Origin: Lujinxingiaceae bacterium
GTDB lineage: Bacteria; Myxococcota_A; Bradymonadia; Bradymonadales; Bradymonadaceae
Assembly: GCA_013697635.1 (NCBI GenBank)
Contig: JACCWM010000077.1
Location: forward strand, 1-34,460
Length of the DNA: 34,460 bases
Reading direction: 5' to 3'
The position numbers and the translations under genes were made by a program. Below, piece after piece: positions 730 to 24,786 of the stretch. Each line of letters starts with the position of its first letter. Within the stretch, counting starts at the first letter, position 1. The notes under the pieces were generated by a model. The model ran no database searches, was not told the DNA's origin, and saw only the letters and a program-made list of their open reading frames with translations.

Positions 730-844
730 AAAATAACAGGCAACAACTCTCCCCTCGCGCTCGATAACAGATCGAGAGCTTCGCGCCGCCTGCGTGCGCC
801 AAGAGCTCTCGAAGAATTCAATCGACGCTTATGAGAGGAGAGTC

Positions 845-2404
845 ATGCTTGCACGCATAGCATCAGGGGCTGTTTTGGGAATTGACGCTTATCGCGTCGA
901 GGTCGAAGTCGACATCGCCTGCGGACTGCAGGTCTTTCACGTCGTCGGACTACCTGACGGCGCCGTACGCGAGAGCCGGCTTCGCGTGCCCTCGGCCATC
1001 GAGAACGCCGGCTTCGAGTTCCCCTTCGAGCGCATCACGGTCAACCTCGCGCCAGCCGACGTGCGAAAAGACGGCACCGCCTTCGATCTGCCCATGGCGA
1101 TCGGAATTTTGGCCGCCGAGCGCAAGATCCCGCTCACCCGCGAGCACTTCAACCTGGCCGACTACCTGATCGTCGGCGAGCTCAGCCTCAATGGCGAGGT
1201 GCGCCCGATCCGGGGCGCCCTTCCGCTGGCTGTGATGGCCCGAGACGCCGGACTTCGCGGCATCATACTGCCCCGCGAGAACGCTCACGAGGCCGGCGTT
1301 GTCGCCGGCATCGACGTCATCGCGGTCAACCACCTCACCGAGGTCACATCGTTCATTCGTGGCACCCTCGACATTGCGCCGACCGAAGTCCAGATTGACG
1401 ATCCCGAGGAGGTCTTTTCGAACTACGCCGTGGACTTCAACGAGGTCGCGGGCCAGGAGAGCGTCAAGCGAGCCCTCGAGGTCGCAGCTGCCGGCGGCCA
1501 CAACGTCTTGCTCATCGGCCCGCCCGGATCTGGAAAGTCCATGCTCGCCAAGCGCATCGCCACGATCTTGCCGGTCATGAGCTTTGAGGAGTCGCTCGAG
1601 ACCACCAAGGTCTACAGCGTCACAGGCCAGCTCGCCGCCGGTCACGGCCTGGTGCGCTGCCGGCCCTTTCGCTCACCCCACCACACGATAAGCGACGTCG
1701 GCATCGTCGGCGGAGGCAGCGGCATCCCTCGCCCTGGCGAGGTCAGCCTTGCTCACAACGGCGTGTTATTCTTGGACGAGCTGCCCGAGTTTCGCCGCAA
1801 CGTGCTCGAGGTCATGCGCCAGCCCCTCGAAGACGGCGTCGTCACGATCAACCGAAGCCTCACCACGCTCACCTATCCGGCCAACGTCATGCTGATCGCC
1901 GCGATGAACCCCTGTCGCTGCGGCTTCTTTGGCTCTCCGCAAAAGCGCTGCGTTTGTCCGATCGAGCAAGTGCGCGACTACCGAAACCGCATCTCCGGCC
2001 CGCTCATGGACCGCATCGACATCCACGTCGAGGTGCCGGCCGTGCCGTACCGAAAGCTCAAGGGCGTGCGCCGCGGCGAGTCGTCGGCCGACATTCGACA
2101 CCGCGTCCAGCAAGCGCGCAACCTGCAAGGGCGCCGCTTTGCCGACTGCGGCCTGCACGCCAACGCGCAGATGGGCCCCTCCCATCTGCGCGCTCACTGC
2201 CAGGTCGACGAGGCCGGCCACGACCTGCTCGAAATGGTCGTCGACCGCCTCGGCATGAGCGCGCGTGCTTACGACCGGATCTTGAAGGTCGCGCGCACCG
2301 TCGCCGACCTCGCTCAAAGCTCCACAATCGAGGCCAGCCACATCTCCGAAGCCGTACAATACCGCTCGCTTGATCGCCAGCTTGGCCGCGACCGGGCTGC
2401 TTGA
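845..2404 (+). CDS. comM: ComM/YifB-family Mg-chelatase-like AAA+ ATPase
   Basis: A 519-residue protein of the YifB/ComM family. Members are hexameric AAA+ helicase-like motors that promote branch migration during integration of transforming DNA. The N-terminal ChlI-like domain (about residues 20-140, with the GLPD..VRESR signature) is followed by a Walker A GPPGSGKS at 225-232, a Walker B VLFLDE near 307-312, and a Cys-rich loop after AMNPCRCGFF (about 353-372). The C-terminal Mg_chelatase_C domain runs to the end. The ATG at 845 is chosen because GGAG lies 5 nt upstream and the protein then begins MLARIASGAVLGID, as family members do; an in-frame start at 794 would add 17 atypical residues. 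A perfect bidirectional terminator follows directly. Many non-competent bacteria carry this gene, so natural competence is not implied. Confidence 0.93.
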   Translation: MLARIASGAVLGIDAYRVEVEVDIACGLQVFHVVGLPDGAVRESRLRVPSAIENAGFEFPFERITVNLAPADVRKDGTAFDLPMAIGILAAERKIPLTREHFNLADYLIVGELSLNGEVRPIRGALPLAVMARDAGLRGIILPRENAHEAGVVAGIDVIAVNHLTEVTSFIRGTLDIAPTEVQIDDPEEVFSNYAVDFNEVAGQESVKRALEVAAAGGHNVLLIGPPGSGKSMLAKRIATILPVMSFEESLETTKVYSVTGQLAAGHGLVRCRPFRSPHHTISDVGIVGGGSGIPRPGEVSLAHNGVLFLDELPEFRRNVLEVMRQPLEDGVVTINRSLTTLTYPANVMLIAAMNPCRCGFFGSPQKRCVCPIEQVRDYRNRISGPLMDRIDIHVEVPAVPYRKLKGVRRGESSADIRHRVQQARNLQGRRFADCGLHANAQMGPSHLRAHCQVDEAGHDLLEMVVDRLGMSARAYDRILKVARTVADLAQSSTIEASHISEAVQYRSLDRQLGRDRAA

Positions 2405-11723: not shown

Positions 11724-14510
11724 ATGGTTGATGACTGCTCATGGAGATCGACTTTGACCGGGCGCGCGTTCGTAATCCTTGTGGGACTGATCGGCCTGCT
11801 CCTTATGTCGCCACCAGTGAGCTCCCAGCAGATCGATCCGACCTTTGCATTCCTGCAAAAAGTCATCGCCGTCCAGGGTGCCAAGTCCCCCGTGTTTGGC
11901 CCTTCGGGCCAGGGCGCGCGTGGTGCGCTCGATATCCATGGCACGGCGGCGCTGTTGCGCTTCGACCAGGAATTGGACGAGGCGCAGCTCGCCGCCCTGG
12001 AGAAACAAGGCGTGCGCTTTGAGCGCCGCCACGACGGCCAGCTGGCTCGCATTGGCACGATTTACCGCGCCTGGATCCGCTGGTCGGCGCTCGAAGCGCT
12101 GTCCGATCATCCCAATCTGATCCGAGCCGAAGCGGGCTGGGCACCGGGCGTCTTGCTTCCCTTGGAAGTGACCGGCGAAAAACTGGGCGCCCATGCCGCC
12201 CATATCTTGCCCGGCCTCGGCGTCGACGGAAAAACCACGCTCATCGGAAACATCGACTCGGGCATCGACGTGCTGCATCCGGCCTTCTTTCACGCCGATG
12301 GCGGCCTGTTTGATTGGATCGACGTCAACGCCAACGGACGCTTCGATGCGGGCATCGACGCAGTCGACCTCAACAAAAACGGCGTCGCCGATCGCAACGA
12401 GGTGCTGCGCGTGCTCGACGGCTCCTGGGTTCAGGACTTTCGCGCCGGCCAGGTTCAAAACCGCGACGGCGTCTTGCAGACACGCCTGGATTGGCTCTAC
12501 GCCGATATGAATCGCGACAGCGAGCGCAATGTTGGACGTACGGCCGGCTTTGACGAGCAAAGCCCGGCCTACGGCGAGCCGCTCTTCGTCGTCGACGACG
12601 TCAACGCCAACGGACGCCTCGATCCGGGCGAAAAGCTCGTCTTGCTCAAGACCTCGAAGATCAAAAAGTACATCGATAACGCCACCGTCTACGAGCGCGG
12701 CATCAACCTGATCGACGCCGGCCAGGCCGAGGGCCTGGCCAATGCCCATCACGGCACCGGCGTGAGCGGCATCCTCGTCGGCGGCCAGCCCGGCTACCAC
12801 GATCGCATCGGCCTTGCGCCGGGAGCAGACCTGATCGTGTACGGCTTCTCCTTTACCGAGGGCTGGGAGACCACGATCATGGCCAGCTTTATCGAGGACG
12901 CCCTGCACGAGCAGGTCGATGTGCTCTTGCACGAGTGGACCAACTGCTTTACCCGCAGCCTTGATGGGTCGACCAATATGGAAGCAGCCATGGACCATGC
13001 GCGAGCTCAGGGCATGATCCAGATCAACCCGCTGGGAAACTTGAACCGCTCACAAAAGCACATCCGCCGCGAGGTCGTCGCCGGAGCCCAGGGTCTGCTC
13101 AGCTTCGAGGTCGGCAATGGCTTTGCCTTTGGCCCGGATGTCTTCCCCTACACCCTGATCTACGGCACCGTTCAATGGCGAGGTCCGATCTCGCCGGCCT
13201 TTGCGCTGCGCCCCCCGGGCGGTGAGCCCGTCCATGTCTATCTCAACGCCGACACCGTCGCCGTGGGCAACGCCCTGACCCATTGGACCCATGAGGCGAC
13301 GCTTCGCGACACCAACATCGCCACCTTCTATCTGTGGAGCGCCGATCAGCAAGTCCCGGTGCAAGCCGGCGAGTGGGCGGTGATCATCGACGACGTCTTT
13401 GAAGACGAGAGCTTCTTCGGGCGTATCAGCGACAGCTACTCGGGCTGGAGCCTGGGTGTGGGCTGGAAACAGAGCACCACCGATGCTATGACCCTGTGCT
13501 TTCCAGCGACCGCCGACTCGGCCGTCGCCGTTGGGGCCTACGGGGGCCGCCACGACCTGGTGACTCAAGACGGCAGCCGCGTCGGGCAACTGCGCAATTT
13601 TTCCGGGCGCGGGCCTCGGCTCGACGGCCGCGCCAATGTCGCGCTCACGGCCCCGGACGACCCCTTCACAGCGCTCGCTGCCACACCTCAAATCGTGGCC
13701 ACAGGCTGGGGCCGCAGCTGGTATGCGACCTTTGGCGGGACCAGCGGCGCCGGGCCTCACGTGGCTGCCGCCGCCGCTCTGGTGCGCGAGCGCTATCCCC
13801 AGTGGACGGCCGCCCAGATCGAGCAACGCCTCTTTGAATCCGCCGATCGCGACGCGCTCGTGCCCGAGCCGGCGAGCTATCCCGACAACCACTGGGGCTG
13901 GGGCAAGCTCAACGTCTACCGCGCCCTCTACGGTGCGCCTGCCCGCGCAAACCGCGCGCCAACGGCCGTGCTCAGCGTCGACGTCGGCGAGCAGGCTGTC
14001 GTCTTCGACGCCGGTGCGAGCAGCGACCCGGACGGAGATCGCATCGAGTTTCGCTTCGACTTCGACTACGACGGTGTGTGGGACGAAGGCTGGACGAGCG
14101 CGCCGCGCGCGTCGGTCGCGCGCGAATTCTTTGAGCTCGATCGGCCCTACTTCGCCCGCCTCGAGGTGCGCGACGGATTCGGCGCACGCGCCGGCGCCTT
14201 GGTCGAGTTCACCCTCTTCGACCCGACGCCCGATCCGGTCGACGTCGGCGCCGATGAGGACGTCGCGAGCGCTCCGAACAACGCCGCCAAGCCGACGACG
14301 ACATGCCTGTGCGCAACGAGCACCAGCACTCCATCCAACCACTTGTTTTTATTGCTACTTTTGGCAACCGCGGCCATTGTGCGCCGAAGCCGCCGGCGCC
14401 CGCTCAGCAGGAATTGCCATCGTTCAAGGGCTGTTGCCACAGGGCCAAATGGTGTAAGAAACAACGAGCAGTCGCTCAAACCGGAGCCAACACATGGATT
14501 TGACCTATAA
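11724..14510 (+). CDS. Secreted subtilisin-like serine protease (S8) with PKD domain and MYXO-CTERM-like tail
   Basis: A 928-residue exported protease. A signal peptide occupies about residues 1-35 (hydrophobic VILVGLIGLLLM, then SPPVSSQ). The S8 triad is D178 (NIDSGID), H343 (HHGTGV) and S674 (GGTSGAGPHVA), with oxyanion N439 in PLGN. Between D178 and H343 lie three dockerin/EF-hand-like calcium loops (DVNANGRFD, DLNKNGVAD, DVNANGRLD). A PKD-like domain (about 744-831, DAGASSDPDGD) follows. The tail has two Cys (861, 863), a hydrophobic run and RRSRRRP, like MYXO-CTERM sorting signals, but translation continues about 35 residues past the Arg cluster and overlaps the next gene by 17 bp. The ATG at 11724 lacks a good Shine-Dalgarno sequence. 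It probably processes peptides in the envelope or outside the cell. Confidence 0.9.
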   Translation: MVDDCSWRSTLTGRAFVILVGLIGLLLMSPPVSSQQIDPTFAFLQKVIAVQGAKSPVFGPSGQGARGALDIHGTAALLRFDQELDEAQLAALEKQGVRFERRHDGQLARIGTIYRAWIRWSALEALSDHPNLIRAEAGWAPGVLLPLEVTGEKLGAHAAHILPGLGVDGKTTLIGNIDSGIDVLHPAFFHADGGLFDWIDVNANGRFDAGIDAVDLNKNGVADRNEVLRVLDGSWVQDFRAGQVQNRDGVLQTRLDWLYADMNRDSERNVGRTAGFDEQSPAYGEPLFVVDDVNANGRLDPGEKLVLLKTSKIKKYIDNATVYERGINLIDAGQAEGLANAHHGTGVSGILVGGQPGYHDRIGLAPGADLIVYGFSFTEGWETTIMASFIEDALHEQVDVLLHEWTNCFTRSLDGSTNMEAAMDHARAQGMIQINPLGNLNRSQKHIRREVVAGAQGLLSFEVGNGFAFGPDVFPYTLIYGTVQWRGPISPAFALRPPGGEPVHVYLNADTVAVGNALTHWTHEATLRDTNIATFYLWSADQQVPVQAGEWAVIIDDVFEDESFFGRISDSYSGWSLGVGWKQSTTDAMTLCFPATADSAVAVGAYGGRHDLVTQDGSRVGQLRNFSGRGPRLDGRANVALTAPDDPFTALAATPQIVATGWGRSWYATFGGTSGAGPHVAAAAALVRERYPQWTAAQIEQRLFESADRDALVPEPASYPDNHWGWGKLNVYRALYGAPARANRAPTAVLSVDVGEQAVVFDAGASSDPDGDRIEFRFDFDYDGVWDEGWTSAPRASVAREFFELDRPYFARLEVRDGFGARAGALVEFTLFDPTPDPVDVGADEDVASAPNNAAKPTTTCLCATSTSTPSNHLFLLLLLATAAIVRRSRRRPLSRNCHRSRAVATGPNGVRNNEQSLKPEPTHGFDL

Positions 14511-14883
14511 AATCGTGCGACGCCTGCTTCGCGACGACGACGTCAAGTTCAGTCGCAATCGCAACTTCGAGGCCTTCGAAGACGCCCGCGTCAAACGCGC
14601 CGTGCGGATCTACCGCCACCTGCGAAGTCTCGAGCGCGACTTGCTTGCTTTGCACGACACCAGCGGCGCCGTGCGCCTCGAGGCCGTTGACTGTGAAGGC
14701 GATCAGATGACAGTGCGACTGACCTTTGCCGAGCGGCGTGGCCTTCGGGTAAGCTATTTGACCAGACGTGAGTGGTTGTTGCTCTTGGAGAACGAGCGGG
14801 TCTCCGATATTCTTCGCCAACTCATGGCAGTGGCCGGCGAGGACACCCAACGCGTGTTGCGCGAGAGTCTGGCGATTGCCTGA
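14494..14883 (+). CDS. Conserved-looking small protein of unknown function
   Basis: A 129-residue soluble protein not recognised. The ATG at 14494 has GGAG 7 nt upstream, a good Shine-Dalgarno sequence inside the end of the protease gene. The protein is charged, begins MDLTYKIVRRLLRDDDVKF and is probably mostly helical. A central beta-like stretch (RLEAVDCEGDQMTVRLTFAE) is followed by LRVSYLTRREWLLLLENERV and a helical end. There is no signal peptide, lipobox, transmembrane helix or metal motif. It overlaps the protease by 17 bp and is followed 71 bp later by a lipoprotein gene, so it is probably part of the same transcription unit. The function is open. Confidence 0.75.
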   Translation: MDLTYKIVRRLLRDDDVKFSRNRNFEAFEDARVKRAVRIYRHLRSLERDLLALHDTSGAVRLEAVDCEGDQMTVRLTFAERRGLRVSYLTRREWLLLLENERVSDILRQLMAVAGEDTQRVLRESLAIA

Positions 14884-18145: not shown

Positions 18146-18520
18146 TTACTCGACGATCAGCGTAAGGCTCATGGCCTGGCTGAAGCGGTTGCTCACGGCG
18201 AACTCGCCCTTGGTCGAGAAGGTGTGGCTCCAGGACTGGTTCGGGTCGACGTTGTGGTCGACGTTGAGCGCGGCGATGTTGACGTTGTGGCGCTCGGGAT
18301 CCTTGTTCTGGAAGGTGACCTTGGTTCCAGCCGGGATCGTCAAGGTGTTGGGGTTGAACTTGAACTGGTACATGACGATGGAGCGATCTTTGGGGGCACT
18401 GGTCTGCTGGGCGTTGTTCTGCTGAGGCACGGGATCGGAACCACCACAAGCCGTTGCAGCAAAAGCGAAGCTGCAAAGTGCGCAAAGAACCACGAGACGA
18501 ACCACAAACGATTGGGACAT
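18146..18520 (-). CDS. Cupredoxin-fold lipoprotein with degenerate copper site
   Basis: A 124-residue lipoprotein with an exact Shine-Dalgarno sequence (AGGAG, 5 nt before the ATG at 18520). The signal sequence ends in lipobox ATAC, so Cys25 is lipidated, followed by a Pro/Gln/Asn-rich linker. The rest has the plastocyanin/azurin-like layout: FKFNPNTLTIPAGTKVTFQN, DPERHNVNI with H78 at the first copper-ligand position, then TFSTKGEF. At the C-terminal ligand loop, where type I copper proteins have Y-x-C...H...M, the sequence is F107-A-V-S-N-R-F-S-Q-A-M117. The Cys and second His are absent; only a Met remains. It is probably a structural or ligand-binding cupredoxin rather than an electron carrier. 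Confidence 0.85.
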   Translation of the reverse strand: MSQSFVVRLVVLCALCSFAFAATACGGSDPVPQQNNAQQTSAPKDRSIVMYQFKFNPNTLTIPAGTKVTFQNKDPERHNVNIAALNVDHNVDPNQSWSHTFSTKGEFAVSNRFSQAMSLTLIVE

Positions 18521-18596: not shown

Positions 18597-18721
18597 AAAA
18601 CGCTTTTGTTCACGTCGAACAAAGTTGAAGCCTTCCGAGTCGACACAATACCCGACTTCAAAAGATTGTCAATCCACGCAGGCCGACCCTCCGAAGTGGC
18701 GTAAATTTAGCACGAATTACT

Positions 18722-18749
18722 TTGTCGTGCCTGAACTCCTTGCTATGAT
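18722..18749 (+). promoter_or_regulatory. Sigma-70-like promoter of the kinase gene
   Basis: TTGTCG (18722-18727) and TATGAT (18744-18749) are spaced by 16 bp; the -10 matches five of six consensus positions. Transcription would start near 18756, leaving a short leader that carries the AGGAGG at 18767-18772 and the TTG start at 18781. The ATG at 18745 lies inside the -10 box and so is not the translation start. Confidence 0.5.
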
Positions 18750-18780
18750 TTTCACGTTGAGCCAAGAGGAGGTCGTCGTT

Positions 18781-21657
18781 TTGAGTCAGCCGCTTCACCA
18801 GCAAATCGCAACTATCGCATTCGAGCAAGGCCTCCTCAGCTTTGAACAGCTGTGTGACATCCTCATGGAACTCGGTCGCGAGCAGCTCGAGCCAGCGCCG
18901 GATTCGGTCAACGTATGGTTGCGTCGGCGCTGGCTCAATACGGCTCAGATCGTCGACATTCTCGGCCAACTCGGTGAGATCTCCGATGACTTCGTCGTGC
19001 CCTCCCAAAGTCGCAATACCGACGACTTTCTGCACGCGGATACCGCCGTCTTCGAATCGATCAACCGAAGCCAGGAGTTGGACACCGCCGAATCGATCAA
19101 CCAGACGCTGACCAACTCGCCCAGCATTCTGTCCTCGGCCCGCTCGAGCCTCGAGCAGCCATCGGCCACAGCCGTCTTTCAGCTCCCGGGCTTGTCCAAG
19201 ACAAGGGGCGCCTTTGACGGTGAAGTCACCGAAGCCAGCGACGATGCCGCAGCTCACTTCCACGGCTTCGTGCACGCGGACACGGCGATTTTGCCGGCAC
19301 GTTTGCTTGAGCCTCAGCCAGGTTCCGAACCAGCGCGTCATGCGGCTGCTCGCTATGTCCTCGGCCACGAGCTCGGAAGTGGGGGCGGCGGCCGCGTCGT
19401 TCGCGCATTTGACGAGGTGCTCGGGCGCACCGTGGCTATGAAGATTTTGCACCCGGCCGCGCTGGTCGTACCCAAGACTTTGGCGCGCTTTGTCGCCGAG
19501 GGCCAGGCCACCGGTCAACTCGAGCACCCCAATATCGTGCCCATCTACGACCTGGGCACCCTGCCAAGCGGTGAGCTCTTCTACACCATGCGCGAGGTGC
19601 GACGGCACACACTGCGCGAGGTGCTCGTCGGCCTCAAGCTCAACGACGCCCACTACGCCGACGAGTACACCCTGGTGCGTCTGATCAACATCCTCAAACA
19701 GATCTGCCAGGCCGTGCACTACGCCCATGTCAGCGGCGTCATTCATCGCGATCTCAAGCCAAGCAACATCATGATCGGCGACTACGGCGAAGTGCTCGTG
19801 ATGGATTGGGGTCTGGCGCGCGTCCTCGACCGCAGCGTCCAGACCGATTTGAGCCGCCAAGGTGGCGAGCTTCACGAGGAGGGCCAGACGCTGGGAACGC
19901 CGGCCTACATGCCCCCCGAGCAAGCCCGCGGTGAGCTCAATGACGTCGACGAGCTCAGCGATACCTACAGCCTGGGCGCGATCCTCTACGAGATGCTCAC
20001 GCTCGACGCGCCCTTCGACGGCACAACGGCTATCGAGATCATGTGGAAGGTGGTCGACAGCGAGCTCGACTTGCCGAGCAGCCGCGCTTTAGCTGGACGC
20101 GTCGTGCCCGAAGAGCTCGAGCGCATCTGCATGCGCGCCATGCACAAAGAAAAGGAGCAGCGCTTTTCCAGCGCCAAGGAGCTGCACGACAACCTCGAGG
20201 ACTGGATCGAGGGAATCCAGCCGCGTGAGGCGGCGCGCAAGGTGCAGGCAGGCGCCGAGGCCGCCCACAGTTATGCGCGATCGCTCGAGCAGATTGGCGA
20301 GCTCGACGAACAGGTGCGCCGCATGGCCACCTCGATCGAAGACTGGGAGCCGATCGAGCGAAAACGCGAGCTCTGGACCCTCGAGGATCAACGCGAGCAG
20401 ACCCAGGCCACAAGCGCGCACGCCTTTGGCGAGGCCGTGGCCTGCTTCACCCAGGCCTTGGCCTACCAGGCAGACAACGCCCTGGCACGCACGGGATTGG
20501 CCGATCTGTGTTGGCAGCGCTTCGCTCAGGCTGAAGCCCATGGCGATGTGGCCGACAGCATCTATTTTCGCGCGCTCGTCGAGCAGTACGACGCCACCAA
20601 ATACGCCCGCCAGTTCGAGGGCAACGTCAACTTGCGCGTCTTCACCGAGCCCGAGGATGCGCGGGTCACCTTGTTTCCCTTCCAGGAAGTCGACCGACGC
20701 CTGGTCGCAAGCGATGAGAGCACACTTGGCAACTCGCCACTGCTCGCCGAAAACCTGAGTATTGGCAGCCACTTGCTGGTCATGGAACACCCCGATCACC
20801 CGACGATTCGACAGCCCATGTTTCTCGAGCGCGGCCGCGACCTCAATTTGCACATCCGCCTGCCACATCACGACGAGTTGCAAGCCGGCTTTGTCTTCGT
20901 TCCTGGCGGTGAGTGCATCATCGGTGGCGACAGGCGAGCCTTTGATCCGATGCCGTCCAAACGCACCTTTGTGGCGTCGTTCTTTTGCGCACGCTTGCCG
21001 GTGACCTTTGGCCAGTACCTGCAGTGGGTCAACGCGCTGCACGAGCAGGACGCCGACGAGGCGCTGCGTCGCGCGCCCCAGACGCGCGGCTCCGAAGGGT
21101 TGCTGATACGCTACGACATCAGCCTGGGAGAGTGGGTGCCAGACGAGATCCTGATCGAGGGTCCCGCACGAAAACTCTATCCGGTGGGCAAAGGACACGA
21201 GGCCAAACTGCCGGTCGTTGGCATTCGCGCCGAAGACGCCGAAGCCTATGGGCGCTGGCGAGGCCAGATCGACGGGCGCCCCTACCGCCTGCCAAGCGCC
21301 CAGGAGTGGGAGAAGGCCAGTCGCGGGGTCGACGGGCGCTGGTTTCCCTGGGGTAACCGCTTCGACGCCACGTTTTGCAAGATGCGCTTCTCGCGACCGG
21401 ACTTGCCTCAACTCGAGCCGGTCGGCAGTTTTGTCGACGACACATCGCCCTACGGCGTGCGCGACATGGGCGGAGGCGTCCAGGAGTGGTGCGCGGAGGC
21501 CGACGCCGTGATCGTCGATCGGCCGATCAAAGGCGGAGCCTGGAACCAGGATGCACGCTCCTGTCGGCTGGCCAGTCGCCTCGACGTTTTGGCCGCCGCG
21601 CGCACCGCCGGCATCGGCTTTCGTCTGGTCTACAGCTATGACCACATCTCGGACTAA
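18781..21657 (+). CDS. Hanks-type serine/threonine protein kinase fused to FGE-sulfatase (SUMF1-like) domain
   Basis: A 958-residue multidomain protein. An N-terminal region of about 190 residues of unknown function precedes a complete kinase: Gly loop LGSGGGGRVV (from about 198), K221 in AMKIL, H322-R-D-L-K-P-S-N with catalytic D324, D342-W-G in place of DFG, and GTPAYMPPEQARG. A helical segment with SYARSLEQ and TPR-like repeats (about 480-600) and a PEGA-like beta domain (from about 614) lead to a C-terminal FGE-sulfatase domain (about 702-955: FVPGGECIIGG, LPSAQEWEKASRG, FPWGN, GGAWNQD, GFRLVYS). The Chlamydia Pkn1 kinase shares this fusion. I chose TTG 18781 because AGGAGG lies 8 nt upstream. 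There is no transmembrane helix, so it is probably cytoplasmic. corA overlaps its end. Confidence 0.9.
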   Translation: MSQPLHQQIATIAFEQGLLSFEQLCDILMELGREQLEPAPDSVNVWLRRRWLNTAQIVDILGQLGEISDDFVVPSQSRNTDDFLHADTAVFESINRSQELDTAESINQTLTNSPSILSSARSSLEQPSATAVFQLPGLSKTRGAFDGEVTEASDDAAAHFHGFVHADTAILPARLLEPQPGSEPARHAAARYVLGHELGSGGGGRVVRAFDEVLGRTVAMKILHPAALVVPKTLARFVAEGQATGQLEHPNIVPIYDLGTLPSGELFYTMREVRRHTLREVLVGLKLNDAHYADEYTLVRLINILKQICQAVHYAHVSGVIHRDLKPSNIMIGDYGEVLVMDWGLARVLDRSVQTDLSRQGGELHEEGQTLGTPAYMPPEQARGELNDVDELSDTYSLGAILYEMLTLDAPFDGTTAIEIMWKVVDSELDLPSSRALAGRVVPEELERICMRAMHKEKEQRFSSAKELHDNLEDWIEGIQPREAARKVQAGAEAAHSYARSLEQIGELDEQVRRMATSIEDWEPIERKRELWTLEDQREQTQATSAHAFGEAVACFTQALAYQADNALARTGLADLCWQRFAQAEAHGDVADSIYFRALVEQYDATKYARQFEGNVNLRVFTEPEDARVTLFPFQEVDRRLVASDESTLGNSPLLAENLSIGSHLLVMEHPDHPTIRQPMFLERGRDLNLHIRLPHHDELQAGFVFVPGGECIIGGDRRAFDPMPSKRTFVASFFCARLPVTFGQYLQWVNALHEQDADEALRRAPQTRGSEGLLIRYDISLGEWVPDEILIEGPARKLYPVGKGHEAKLPVVGIRAEDAEAYGRWRGQIDGRPYRLPSAQEWEKASRGVDGRWFPWGNRFDATFCKMRFSRPDLPQLEPVGSFVDDTSPYGVRDMGGGVQEWCAEADAVIVDRPIKGGAWNQDARSCRLASRLDVLAAARTAGIGFRLVYSYDHISD

Positions 21658-22852
21658 GGGCTATGTGAAGAGCTTCAAGCGCTACATCCCGATCAAGGAG
21701 CTGCGCGACCAGATCCGCAGCACGCTGCGCCCCGTCGAGATCCGGCGAAATCAGCCCGGCGCGCCGCCAGGAACGCTGATCAGCGTCCACGAAGCGCCTG
21801 CGCCCACCGTTGACGTGCTCGCCTTCAAGGCCGATGACTTCGTCGAGGCCACGCTCGAAGATCTGACCAAGCTCGACGACTTTTTGGGCAAGTGGCCGGT
21901 GTGCTGGATCAACGTCGTTGGCCTGGGCGATGCCGAGGTCATTCGCCAGATCGGTGAGCGCCTCGATCTGCACAAGCTCGCGCTCGAAGACGTGCTCAAC
22001 GTGCCCCAGCGGCCCAAGCTCGAGGCCTATGACGACAAGCTCTTCTGCATCGCCCGCATGCCCCGATCCGGCGGCCAGGTCAGCGACGGCATCGAGCAGG
22101 TCAGCATCTTCATCGCCAAGAATTTCGTTCTCACCGTCCAGGAGCGACCCGGCGACGTCTTCGCGCCCGTGCGCCAACGCATTCGCTCCAGCCGCACGCG
22201 CGTGACCCGCCTGGGCACCGACTACCTGGCCTATGCGATCCTCGATGCGATCATCGACAGCTACTTTCCACTGCTCGAGGAGTTCGGCGAGGAGCTGGCC
22301 GAGGTCGAGGCGATCATTTTGAGCGGCGTCGTCGACCAGACGATCGCGCGCATCTACCGGCTCAAACGCGATCTACTCACGATCCGCCGCGCGATGTGGC
22401 CCCAGCGCGACGCGATCTTTGCGCTCTACCGCGAGCCCACCGAGTTGGTCTCAAGCGACACCCAGATCCACCTTCGCGACTGCGCCGACCACTGCAACCA
22501 CATCATCGATCTGCTTGAGAACTACCGTGAGATCAGCGCAAGCCTCGTCGACCTCTATTTGTCGATGACCAGCCAGCGCATGAACGAGATCATGAAGGTG
22601 CTCACGGTCATTGCCACGATTTTCATTCCCCTGACTTTTGTCGTCGGTGTCTATGGCATGAACTTCAACCCGGACGTCTCGCCATGGAACATGCCCGAGC
22701 TCAACTGGCGCTATGGCTATGCCGTTACGATGGGCGCCATGGGAACCCTGGCCCTGGGTATGCTGGCCTACTTCTGGCGCAAGGGCTGGATTGGCGGACA
22801 GGCCGTGGTGCTAGACGACGTCAGTGCGAGCGATAGGCGGCGCCAACTTTGA
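21638..22852 (+). CDS. corA: CorA-family magnesium/cobalt transporter
   Basis: A 404-residue CorA-type channel for Mg2+ and possibly Co2+ or Ni2+. The large cytoplasmic N-terminal domain ends in two C-terminal transmembrane helices. The signature G340-M-N342 in VYGMNF closes helix 1 and is followed by the periplasmic loop NPDVSPWNMPELNWRYGY, containing the conserved MPEL. The cytoplasmic part has LEDVLNVPQRPKLEAYDD and the usual QERPGDVFAPVRQRI segment. The ATG at 21638 overlaps the kinase gene by 20 bp; a GTG at 21665, just after the kinase stop with AAGGG before it, is an alternative start. The overlap or adjacency suggests translational coupling with the kinase. Confidence in the family is high. 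Confidence 0.93.
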   Translation: MTTSRTKGYVKSFKRYIPIKELRDQIRSTLRPVEIRRNQPGAPPGTLISVHEAPAPTVDVLAFKADDFVEATLEDLTKLDDFLGKWPVCWINVVGLGDAEVIRQIGERLDLHKLALEDVLNVPQRPKLEAYDDKLFCIARMPRSGGQVSDGIEQVSIFIAKNFVLTVQERPGDVFAPVRQRIRSSRTRVTRLGTDYLAYAILDAIIDSYFPLLEEFGEELAEVEAIILSGVVDQTIARIYRLKRDLLTIRRAMWPQRDAIFALYREPTELVSSDTQIHLRDCADHCNHIIDLLENYREISASLVDLYLSMTSQRMNEIMKVLTVIATIFIPLTFVVGVYGMNFNPDVSPWNMPELNWRYGYAVTMGAMGTLALGMLAYFWRKGWIGGQAVVLDDVSASDRRRQL

Positions 22853-22989: not shown

Positions 22990-24786
22990 ATGACAAATCG
23001 ACTCTTCGGTGCAGCGATCCTCATCCTGTTTGCGCTTTTGGGCTTGGCCGGCTGCACCTATGAATCGAACAGCCTGGCCGGGATCGCTTGTCCCGACGAA
23101 GGCGCACGAAGCGGCGCGTTGATCTGTCTCTCGGGCGTCTGGGTCAACGATGCCCAAACGTTGCTCGACGTGGTAGGCGATGACGTGCCCGACGTGCCCG
23201 ACGGGACCGACATACCCGATGTGCGCATTGCCGACGTCGACAAAGACACCACCGACACACCGTCTGTGCCCGATACCAGCGACGGTGGCGACGTCGATCC
23301 CTGCGTGCCCGAGAGCGATACTCAGTTTTGCGAACGCCAGACCACCATCTGTGGCCCGCTCAGCGCCCTCGACAACTGCGGCGTCACACGCAACGTCGAC
23401 GAGTGCGGCTCCTGTCAGTCAGACGAGCGGTGCCAGCAAAACCTGTGTGTGCCAGCCTCATGCAACGACCTCGTCAAGAACGGCACGGAGACCGACGTCG
23501 ACTGCGGCGGCAATTGTCCGCCCTGCGCAACCACGCAAGCCTGCCTGGTGGGGCCTGACTGCCTCAGCGGCGTCTGCGGAGCCAACAAGGCTTGCCGGGC
23601 CGCGACCTGTGAAGACGGCGTCAAGAATGGCAGCGAGAGCGCCATCGATTGCGGAGGAAGCTGTCCCAACGCCTGCGCCACCGACATGGGTTGCAACGGC
23701 CCTGCCGACTGCCAGAGCCGCGTGTGCATCGGCGACACATGCCGTGCACCGACGTGCAGCGATGAGGTCAAGAATGGCAGCGAGAGTGACGTCGATTGTG
23801 GTGGGAGTTGCCCGCTAAAGTGTACCACCAACAAAGCCTGCAGTGGCCCCGGCGACTGCCAAAGCGGCGTTTGCACCAATGATGTCTGCCTGGCTGCCAC
23901 CTGCTCGGATGGCGTTCAAAATGGCCAGGAGACCGACATCGACTGCGGCGGCCCGACCTGTGAGAGCTGCGTGACCCGTTACACCCAGATCAGCGCCGGT
24001 GGCAGCCACACCTGCGGCCTTCGGCCCAACGGCACGATCGCCTGCTGGGGCAACGACGGCAATGGCCAGGCCACGATCCCAAACGGCACCCACACCTACA
24101 AACAGGTCGCCGCCGGCTTCGCCCACACCTGCGCGATTCGCAGCGACGACGCCGTGGTTTGCTGGGGCAAAGCCGGTCCCTGGCGCACGCCGCCAGCCGG
24201 CGCCTTCCTTCAGATCAGCGCCGGCTTCGAGCACAACTGCGGCATCCTCACGGACTCCAAATTGCTCTGCTGGGGCAACCCGGGTGATGATCGCCTCGTA
24301 ACCGGGACCGGTGCCTCAGGTTGGGGACAAGTCAGTGCCGGCACCAAGCACTCCTGTGTGACGATGACGACCGACATCAGCAACAACTCGCGCTGCTGGG
24401 GCGACTCGTCCGAAGGTCGCGCAAGCCTCGGTACAGGCTCGAACAACAAGTACAAACGGATCAGCGCCGGCGAGGAGCACACCTGCGCGATCAAGTTCTC
24501 CGACAACACCCTGGCCTGCTTTGGTAACTCCGCCGAGAGCTGGGTGAACCAGCGCCCGAGCGGCACCTACACCGAGGTTTCCTCTCGCCACAAGTACAAC
24601 TGCGCGGTTCACACCAACGGATCGCTGGCCTGCTGGGGCGAGTCCAACTCGAATCGCACGATGCACCCGGTGGGAAACAACTTCGTTCAGGTCAGCGCCG
24701 GTTGGCTTCACGCCTGTGCGCTGACCGCGCAGCAACACGTCGTCTGCTGGGGCAACGCCGGCGACGGGCGCACCAACGTGCCTTGA
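22990..24786 (+). CDS. Lipoprotein with Cys-rich repeats and seven RCC1-like repeats
   Basis: A 598-residue exported protein. The signal sequence has lipobox LAGC (Cys22). An Asp/Pro/Thr-rich spacer (residues about 60-100, with repeated DVPD units) leads to four Cys-rich repeats (23461-23972) of the form C-x-D-x-V-x-N-G-x-E-T-D-V-D-C-G-G-x-C-P, with two to four further Cys each; the last is shortened. Then come seven RCC1/BLIP-II-like repeats (from about 23976), each with an ISAG-x-x-H-x-C start and a CWG end, likely a seven-bladed beta propeller with one disulphide per blade. Such proteins occur on the surface of Myxococcota. No Shine-Dalgarno sequence is visible before the ATG. A terminator hairpin follows the stop. 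The ligand is unknown. Confidence 0.88.
   Translation: MTNRLFGAAILILFALLGLAGCTYESNSLAGIACPDEGARSGALICLSGVWVNDAQTLLDVVGDDVPDVPDGTDIPDVRIADVDKDTTDTPSVPDTSDGGDVDPCVPESDTQFCERQTTICGPLSALDNCGVTRNVDECGSCQSDERCQQNLCVPASCNDLVKNGTETDVDCGGNCPPCATTQACLVGPDCLSGVCGANKACRAATCEDGVKNGSESAIDCGGSCPNACATDMGCNGPADCQSRVCIGDTCRAPTCSDEVKNGSESDVDCGGSCPLKCTTNKACSGPGDCQSGVCTNDVCLAATCSDGVQNGQETDIDCGGPTCESCVTRYTQISAGGSHTCGLRPNGTIACWGNDGNGQATIPNGTHTYKQVAAGFAHTCAIRSDDAVVCWGKAGPWRTPPAGAFLQISAGFEHNCGILTDSKLLCWGNPGDDRLVTGTGASGWGQVSAGTKHSCVTMTTDISNNSRCWGDSSEGRASLGTGSNNKYKRISAGEEHTCAIKFSDNTLACFGNSAESWVNQRPSGTYTEVSSRHKYNCAVHTNGSLACWGESNSNRTMHPVGNNFVQVSAGWLHACALTAQQHVVCWGNAGDGRTNVP
23461..23972. repeat. Four degenerate Cys-rich coding repeats of about 150 bp
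   Basis: DNA-level repeats inside the RCC1 lipoprotein. The phrase GTCAAGAATGGCAGCGAGAG recurs exactly at two copies and in altered form in the others. Each unit encodes one Cys-rich module of about 48 residues, and the fourth stops after about 24. The units are too diverged to be simple polymerase slippage but could still recombine. Confidence 0.75.

Follow-up and report, generated by a model that had tools for sequence, protein, structure and literature searches.

A PknB-like kinase-FGE fusion gene overlapping corA in a Lujinxingiaceae bacterium: most likely chance neighbours at a rearrangement junction

Locus and gene content

The DNA analysed, referred to here as the window, is a 34,460-nt stretch from a Lujinxingiaceae bacterium (GenBank assembly GCA_013697635.1, contig JACCWM010000077.1, positions 1 to 34,460; contig C207 of the 6.2-Mb assembly), in which a gene encoding a serine/threonine kinase fused to an FGE-sulfatase domain runs directly into a corA magnesium/cobalt transporter gene. 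An earlier note, made from the sequence alone, had taken this tight coupling to suggest co-expression and had asked whether the kinase modifies CorA or responds to Mg2+. Open reading frames (ORFs) for both genes were present, at 18625-21657 (+) and 21551-22852 (+), and the features were placed within and before them as follows:

18767..18772, forward strand: Shine-Dalgarno sequence AGGAGG, 8 nt upstream of the TTG at 18781, read from the sequence
18781..21657, forward strand: Ser/Thr kinase-FGE fusion, 958 aa, with a TTG start and the stop codon TAA at 21655-21657; Pfam and AlphaFold2 model
21638..22852, forward strand: corA magnesium/cobalt transporter gene, starting at ATG 21638 or alternatively at GTG 21665; TIGR00383, PF01544 and the motif YGMNF

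The TTG at 18781 fits as the kinase start because of the AGGAGG upstream of it and because, among relatives whose match reaches the N-terminus, the alignment begins at query residue 3-5 counted from this codon (seven rows). Starting at ATG 21638, corA overlaps the kinase gene by 20 nt; starting at GTG 21665, it follows the kinase stop after a 7-nt gap. The arrangement given in the earlier note was thus confirmed by both the ORFs and the domains.

The fusion protein matched Pkinase with 131.3 bits and FGE-sulfatase (PF03781) with 106.3 bits (cut-off 23.3), both above the Pfam cut-offs, and so has a kinase and a C-terminal FGE domain in one chain, the architecture for which the earlier note had invoked Chlamydia. 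The likeness is borne out by the description of Chlamydia trachomatis Pkn1 as a kinase with a C-terminal FGE domain (PMC3581485); the window protein differs, however, from Pkn1 as described there in its additional N-terminal part and its TPR/PEGA-like middle. An AlphaFold2 model built from 14 sequences (mean pLDDT 77.3; pTM 0.51, at which the relative placement of the domains is unreliable) accompanies the following division:

aa 2-63: helical N-terminal part, moderate confidence
aa 67-187: low-confidence linker
aa 192-468: PknB-like kinase
aa 465-603: long helices with a TPR-like part
aa 615-693: PEGA-like beta region
aa 703-950: FGE-like domain

The labels TPR and PEGA come from weak Pfam matches, each in two of the 14 aligned members and neither in the window protein itself. 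The 50 Foldseek matches listed were all kinase structures, PknB first, and none for the FGE part was among them.

Across 24 sequences, K221, N329, D342, W343, and G344 were invariant and R323 and D324 were present in at least 90%, which supplies the catalytic Lys, HRD Asp, and DxG Asp of PknB-type (Hanks) Ser/Thr kinases. The score against the PknB PASTA kinase equivalog (NF033483) was 247.6 bits, under its 450-bit cut-off, and no membrane span was found by hydropathy (highest 19-residue mean 1.27). The domain architecture of the protein is conserved. Judged from these sequence features, the first gene most likely encodes a soluble, cytoplasmic PknB-like Ser/Thr kinase. The genome as a whole holds 112 matches to the kinase-FGE query, mostly to its kinase part, representing a large Ser/Thr kinase set, and three paralogues (on contigs C81, C83, and C135) match across both kinase and FGE. 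The second gene is an ordinary corA: its product scored 323.7 bits against TIGR00383 (cut-off 200.75) and 215.1 bits against PF01544, contains the GMN motif, and differs in nothing notable from the CorA family.

Kinase and CorA in related genomes

The pairing was sought in 39 genomes, those of 38 relatives and the window's own. Of the relatives, 32 had a kinase-FGE match at E <= 1e-80, 17 a CorA match at E <= 1e-20, and 13 both. The two genes were found near each other in none of these 13, and no conserved kinase-corA operon was therefore seen; lack of adjacency in relatives is the genomic outcome that the earlier note had named as speaking against its proposal. In 11 of the 13, every listed kinase and CorA match lay on separate contigs; in G005 and G010, each a single contig, the closest of the listed matches were ∼3.3 Mb and ∼1.1 Mb apart, respectively. 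Within the same family, a kinase orthologue (E <= 1e-175) was found in 14 of 20 relatives and CorA (E <= 1e-50) in five of 20, and at these stricter thresholds only G010 had both, >2 Mb apart on one contig.

A set of 170 loci gave the same picture, with 141 matching the kinase and 31 matching CorA; the only loci that matched both were the two copies of the window itself, although many of the remaining loci have only 1.5 kb of flank. Likewise, none of at least 80 named genome loci gathered with the kinase alignment contained a CorA match; most of these match the kinase part alone, and just 14 of their ORFs, one with a weak match, cover kinase and FGE together, which makes the control less powerful than the number of loci would indicate. 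A conserved kinase-corA module was rejected on the absence of adjacency in relatives with both genes, together with the lack of joint loci besides the window's own.

Usual neighbours of the kinase and of CorA

Gene order around the kinase was followed in 12 of the 14 same-family kinase loci (L058-L062, L064, L065, L070-L073, and L076); in G008 and G019 the contig breaks off too close to the gene. Two further genes of the window matter for this comparison:

794..2404, forward strand: YifB/ComM-type AAA gene, PF01078 313.2 bits, 16 kb upstream of the kinase in the window
18146..18520, reverse strand: small cupredoxin-like gene divergent from the kinase, PF13473 44.9 bits, lipoprotein-like N-terminus by eye

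Downstream of the kinase, YifB/ComM was found in 10 of the 12 loci and CorA in none. The spacing between kinase and YifB was within ∼300 nt in nine loci and ∼1 kb in L064, where an intervening ORF has a weak, borderline match to MqsA; YifB is convergent with the kinase in nine loci, and in L065 the two share a strand. On the upstream side, where 11 loci have flank (L072 has none), eight carry a divergent cupredoxin-like gene, the exceptions being L059, L073, and L076; a Phe hydroxylase and a TldD-like protease occurred there in six and seven loci, respectively. The window retains the upstream gene order of its relatives, and its YifB still adjoins the same first gene (1-729), which we take to be glutathione-transferase-like, that accompanies YifB in L070 and L072. 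Because YifB lies beside this usual companion 16 kb upstream of the kinase, the block has moved relative to the kinase, and the kinase-CorA junction is best read, from gene order, as the breakpoint of a lineage-specific rearrangement. At eight orthologue loci outside the family (L063, L066-L069, L074, L075, and L077), none of the six neighbours checked was found within the flank.

For CorA, 17 of 19 relative loci were examined (L078-L087 and L049-L055), the weak L056 and L057 being excluded. A tight join was defined as a same-strand ORF of >=90 aa ending <=45 nt from, or overlapping, the start of CorA homology, so that distances run to the homology start rather than to a proven start codon. 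Eight of the 17 loci had such an upstream ORF, and Pfam named seven of the eight:

L078 and L080: ParB
L079: aromatic amino acid hydroxylase
L082 and L084: metallo-beta-lactamase fold hydrolase
L085: HisRS
L052: MscS

The eighth (L081) had no Pfam match and may not be a gene. In L083, a citrate transporter lies 71 nt from CorA, and the remaining loci showed wider gaps or no such ORF. Since CorA is tightly joined to different named genes in seven of the 17 loci, the tight join is not specific to the kinase. Overlap is also not confined to this junction in the window: in a comparison covering 15 of its genes, ORFs at 11724-14510 and 14494-14883 overlapped, as called, by 17 nt. Downstream of corA, an RCC1-repeat protein with a lipoprotein-like start (by eye) is encoded at 22990-24786 (+).

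The FGE-like domain

The active-site cysteines of human SUMF1/FGE are given as Cys336 and Cys341 (PMC4505483). Aligned by eye with human SUMF1, the corresponding loop of the window protein (GGAWNQDARSCRLAS) has three fewer residues between GG and RxA and contains a single Cys. The Cys-x4-Cys of true FGEs was found in none of 21 sequences, comprising the window protein and 20 orthologues; 20 of the 21 keep one Cys before Arg or His in this loop, the exception being L058, and L062 carries a further Cys that forms Cys-x-Cys. Elsewhere in the FGE-like part, C866 was invariant in 24 sequences. Because the active-site Cys pair is missing, formylglycine formation by the domain is not expected and probably does not occur, which agrees with the suggestion of the earlier note that its role is probably non-catalytic or unknown. 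The same note had remarked on the lack of a neighbouring sulfatase, and indeed none of the nine PF00884 matches in the genome lies on contig C207; such a neighbour is common for FGE but not obligatory.

The possibility that another locus of the genome encodes a genuine FGE was also considered and rejected: of 15 PF03781 stretches, 13 had readable loops (one piece on C105 lacks the loop and the stretch on C110 ends inside it), and none of these contained Cys-x4-Cys. Two Cys, at a wider spacing, do occur in each of the loops on C83 and C60. The genome carries nine sulfatase-type PF00884 matches although no readable PF03781 loop has the Cys-x4-Cys.

Fusions of this kind have precedents. In Planctomycetota, the sulfatase-modifying-factor domain is reported to rank third in abundance among the domains associated with kinases and to occur in almost every species; those kinases are described as mostly single-span membrane proteins with the domain in the periplasm, whereas the window kinase has no predicted span (PMC11032199). 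The FGE domain has been classed as a subtype of the C-type-lectin fold with a proposed sensing role (PMC10907252), and FGE domains have been placed among miscellaneous effector domains (PMC7159879). In conflict and diversity-generating retroelement (DGR) systems, as these two sources describe them, FGE-type lectin domains are found on STAND or VMAP-ternary proteins, whereas in the window the domain is on a kinase. A literature search pairing the FGE-sulfatase and protein kinase domains found no paper, one on the combined FGE-sulfatase and kinase architecture returned pseudo-orthocaspases only, and one on Bradymonad protein kinases returned, by title, only studies of gut, rumen, or vaginal samples.

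Interpretation

The arrangement is best explained as two ordinary genes placed side by side by a rearrangement in this lineage, with no need for a functional link (probability roughly 0.8); the kinase and corA are most likely chance neighbours. The rearrangement would have brought the two genes together; CorA itself is a normal one, and its translation may depend in part on coupling to the gene in front of it, whichever that is. In the kinase, the FGE-like domain, with a C-type-lectin fold by family, and the TPR- and PEGA-like parts would most likely bind a ligand or a partner protein; such binding could set where or when the kinase acts, with the TPR/PEGA-like middle transmitting the signal or recruiting.

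Several observations weigh against this account. The sample was scored with 21 candidates per genome on mostly fragmented assemblies, where a pair could be missed, and the genus of the window is represented by one genome, so that the comparison bears on relatives beyond the genus. Two same-family loci (L073 and L076) also have no YifB downstream of the kinase, and nine of the 17 CorA loci have no tight upstream ORF, so that tight joins are common rather than universal. G005 lacks a close orthologue of the kinase, and its CorA gene (L079) overlaps the end of a gene for an aromatic amino acid hydroxylase and lies ∼3 kb from a homologue of the window's first gene; because a hydroxylase gene of this kind also occurs close to the kinase in the window, the tie between CorA and the kinase region may be older than the rearrangement implies. 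Binding of a ligand or partner by the FGE-like domain is, moreover, something that we infer.

The link raised by the earlier note would call for a functional operon, here a lineage-specific one, in which the overlap couples translation and the kinase either governs CorA, through phosphorylation or through stoichiometric co-expression, or is itself responsive to Mg2+. The shared strand and 20-nt overlap are what such an operon would show, and a simple consensus scan called no terminator-like site at the junction; however, the pair was not found in any of the 13 relatives with both genes, CorA closely follows unrelated genes elsewhere, the window has a comparable overlap of its own, and a full-text literature search on CorA phosphorylation by a Ser/Thr kinase returned papers that were off-topic by title and abstract. 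The suggested link was therefore not supported, and an operon of this kind is regarded as highly improbable. An active oxidase of the wider family, with EgtB- or PvdO-like chemistry on a small molecule or peptide under control of the kinase, would account for the sequence or profile matches of the FGE domain to PDB chains of PvdO, OvsA, and EgtB and for the retained Cys before Arg/His and the invariant C866, but the FGE Cys pair is absent and Pfam identified no further domain for metal binding in the window protein; such an activity seems unlikely. The divergent cupredoxin is a better candidate than CorA for a functional neighbour of the kinase, and hints weakly at a process. Very little weight is given to two bolder possibilities, either that corA was captured by the kinase gene in this one lineage, so that translational coupling makes a sensor kinase with a lectin fold the controller of magnesium uptake, or that the divergent cupredoxin lipoprotein, rather than CorA, is what the kinase is truly and conservedly partnered with, the two forming a copper- or redox-linked signalling pair.

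Chance adjacency through rearrangement thus remains the preferred explanation. Both genes are of known kinds, and the kinase-FGE fusion is already in print. For this kinase, the family name FGE misleads, as the formylglycine active site is missing from every sequence compared. More generally, these bacteria repeatedly have CorA abutting an unrelated gene upstream, and a tight overlap between two genes on one strand says little about whether they share a function.

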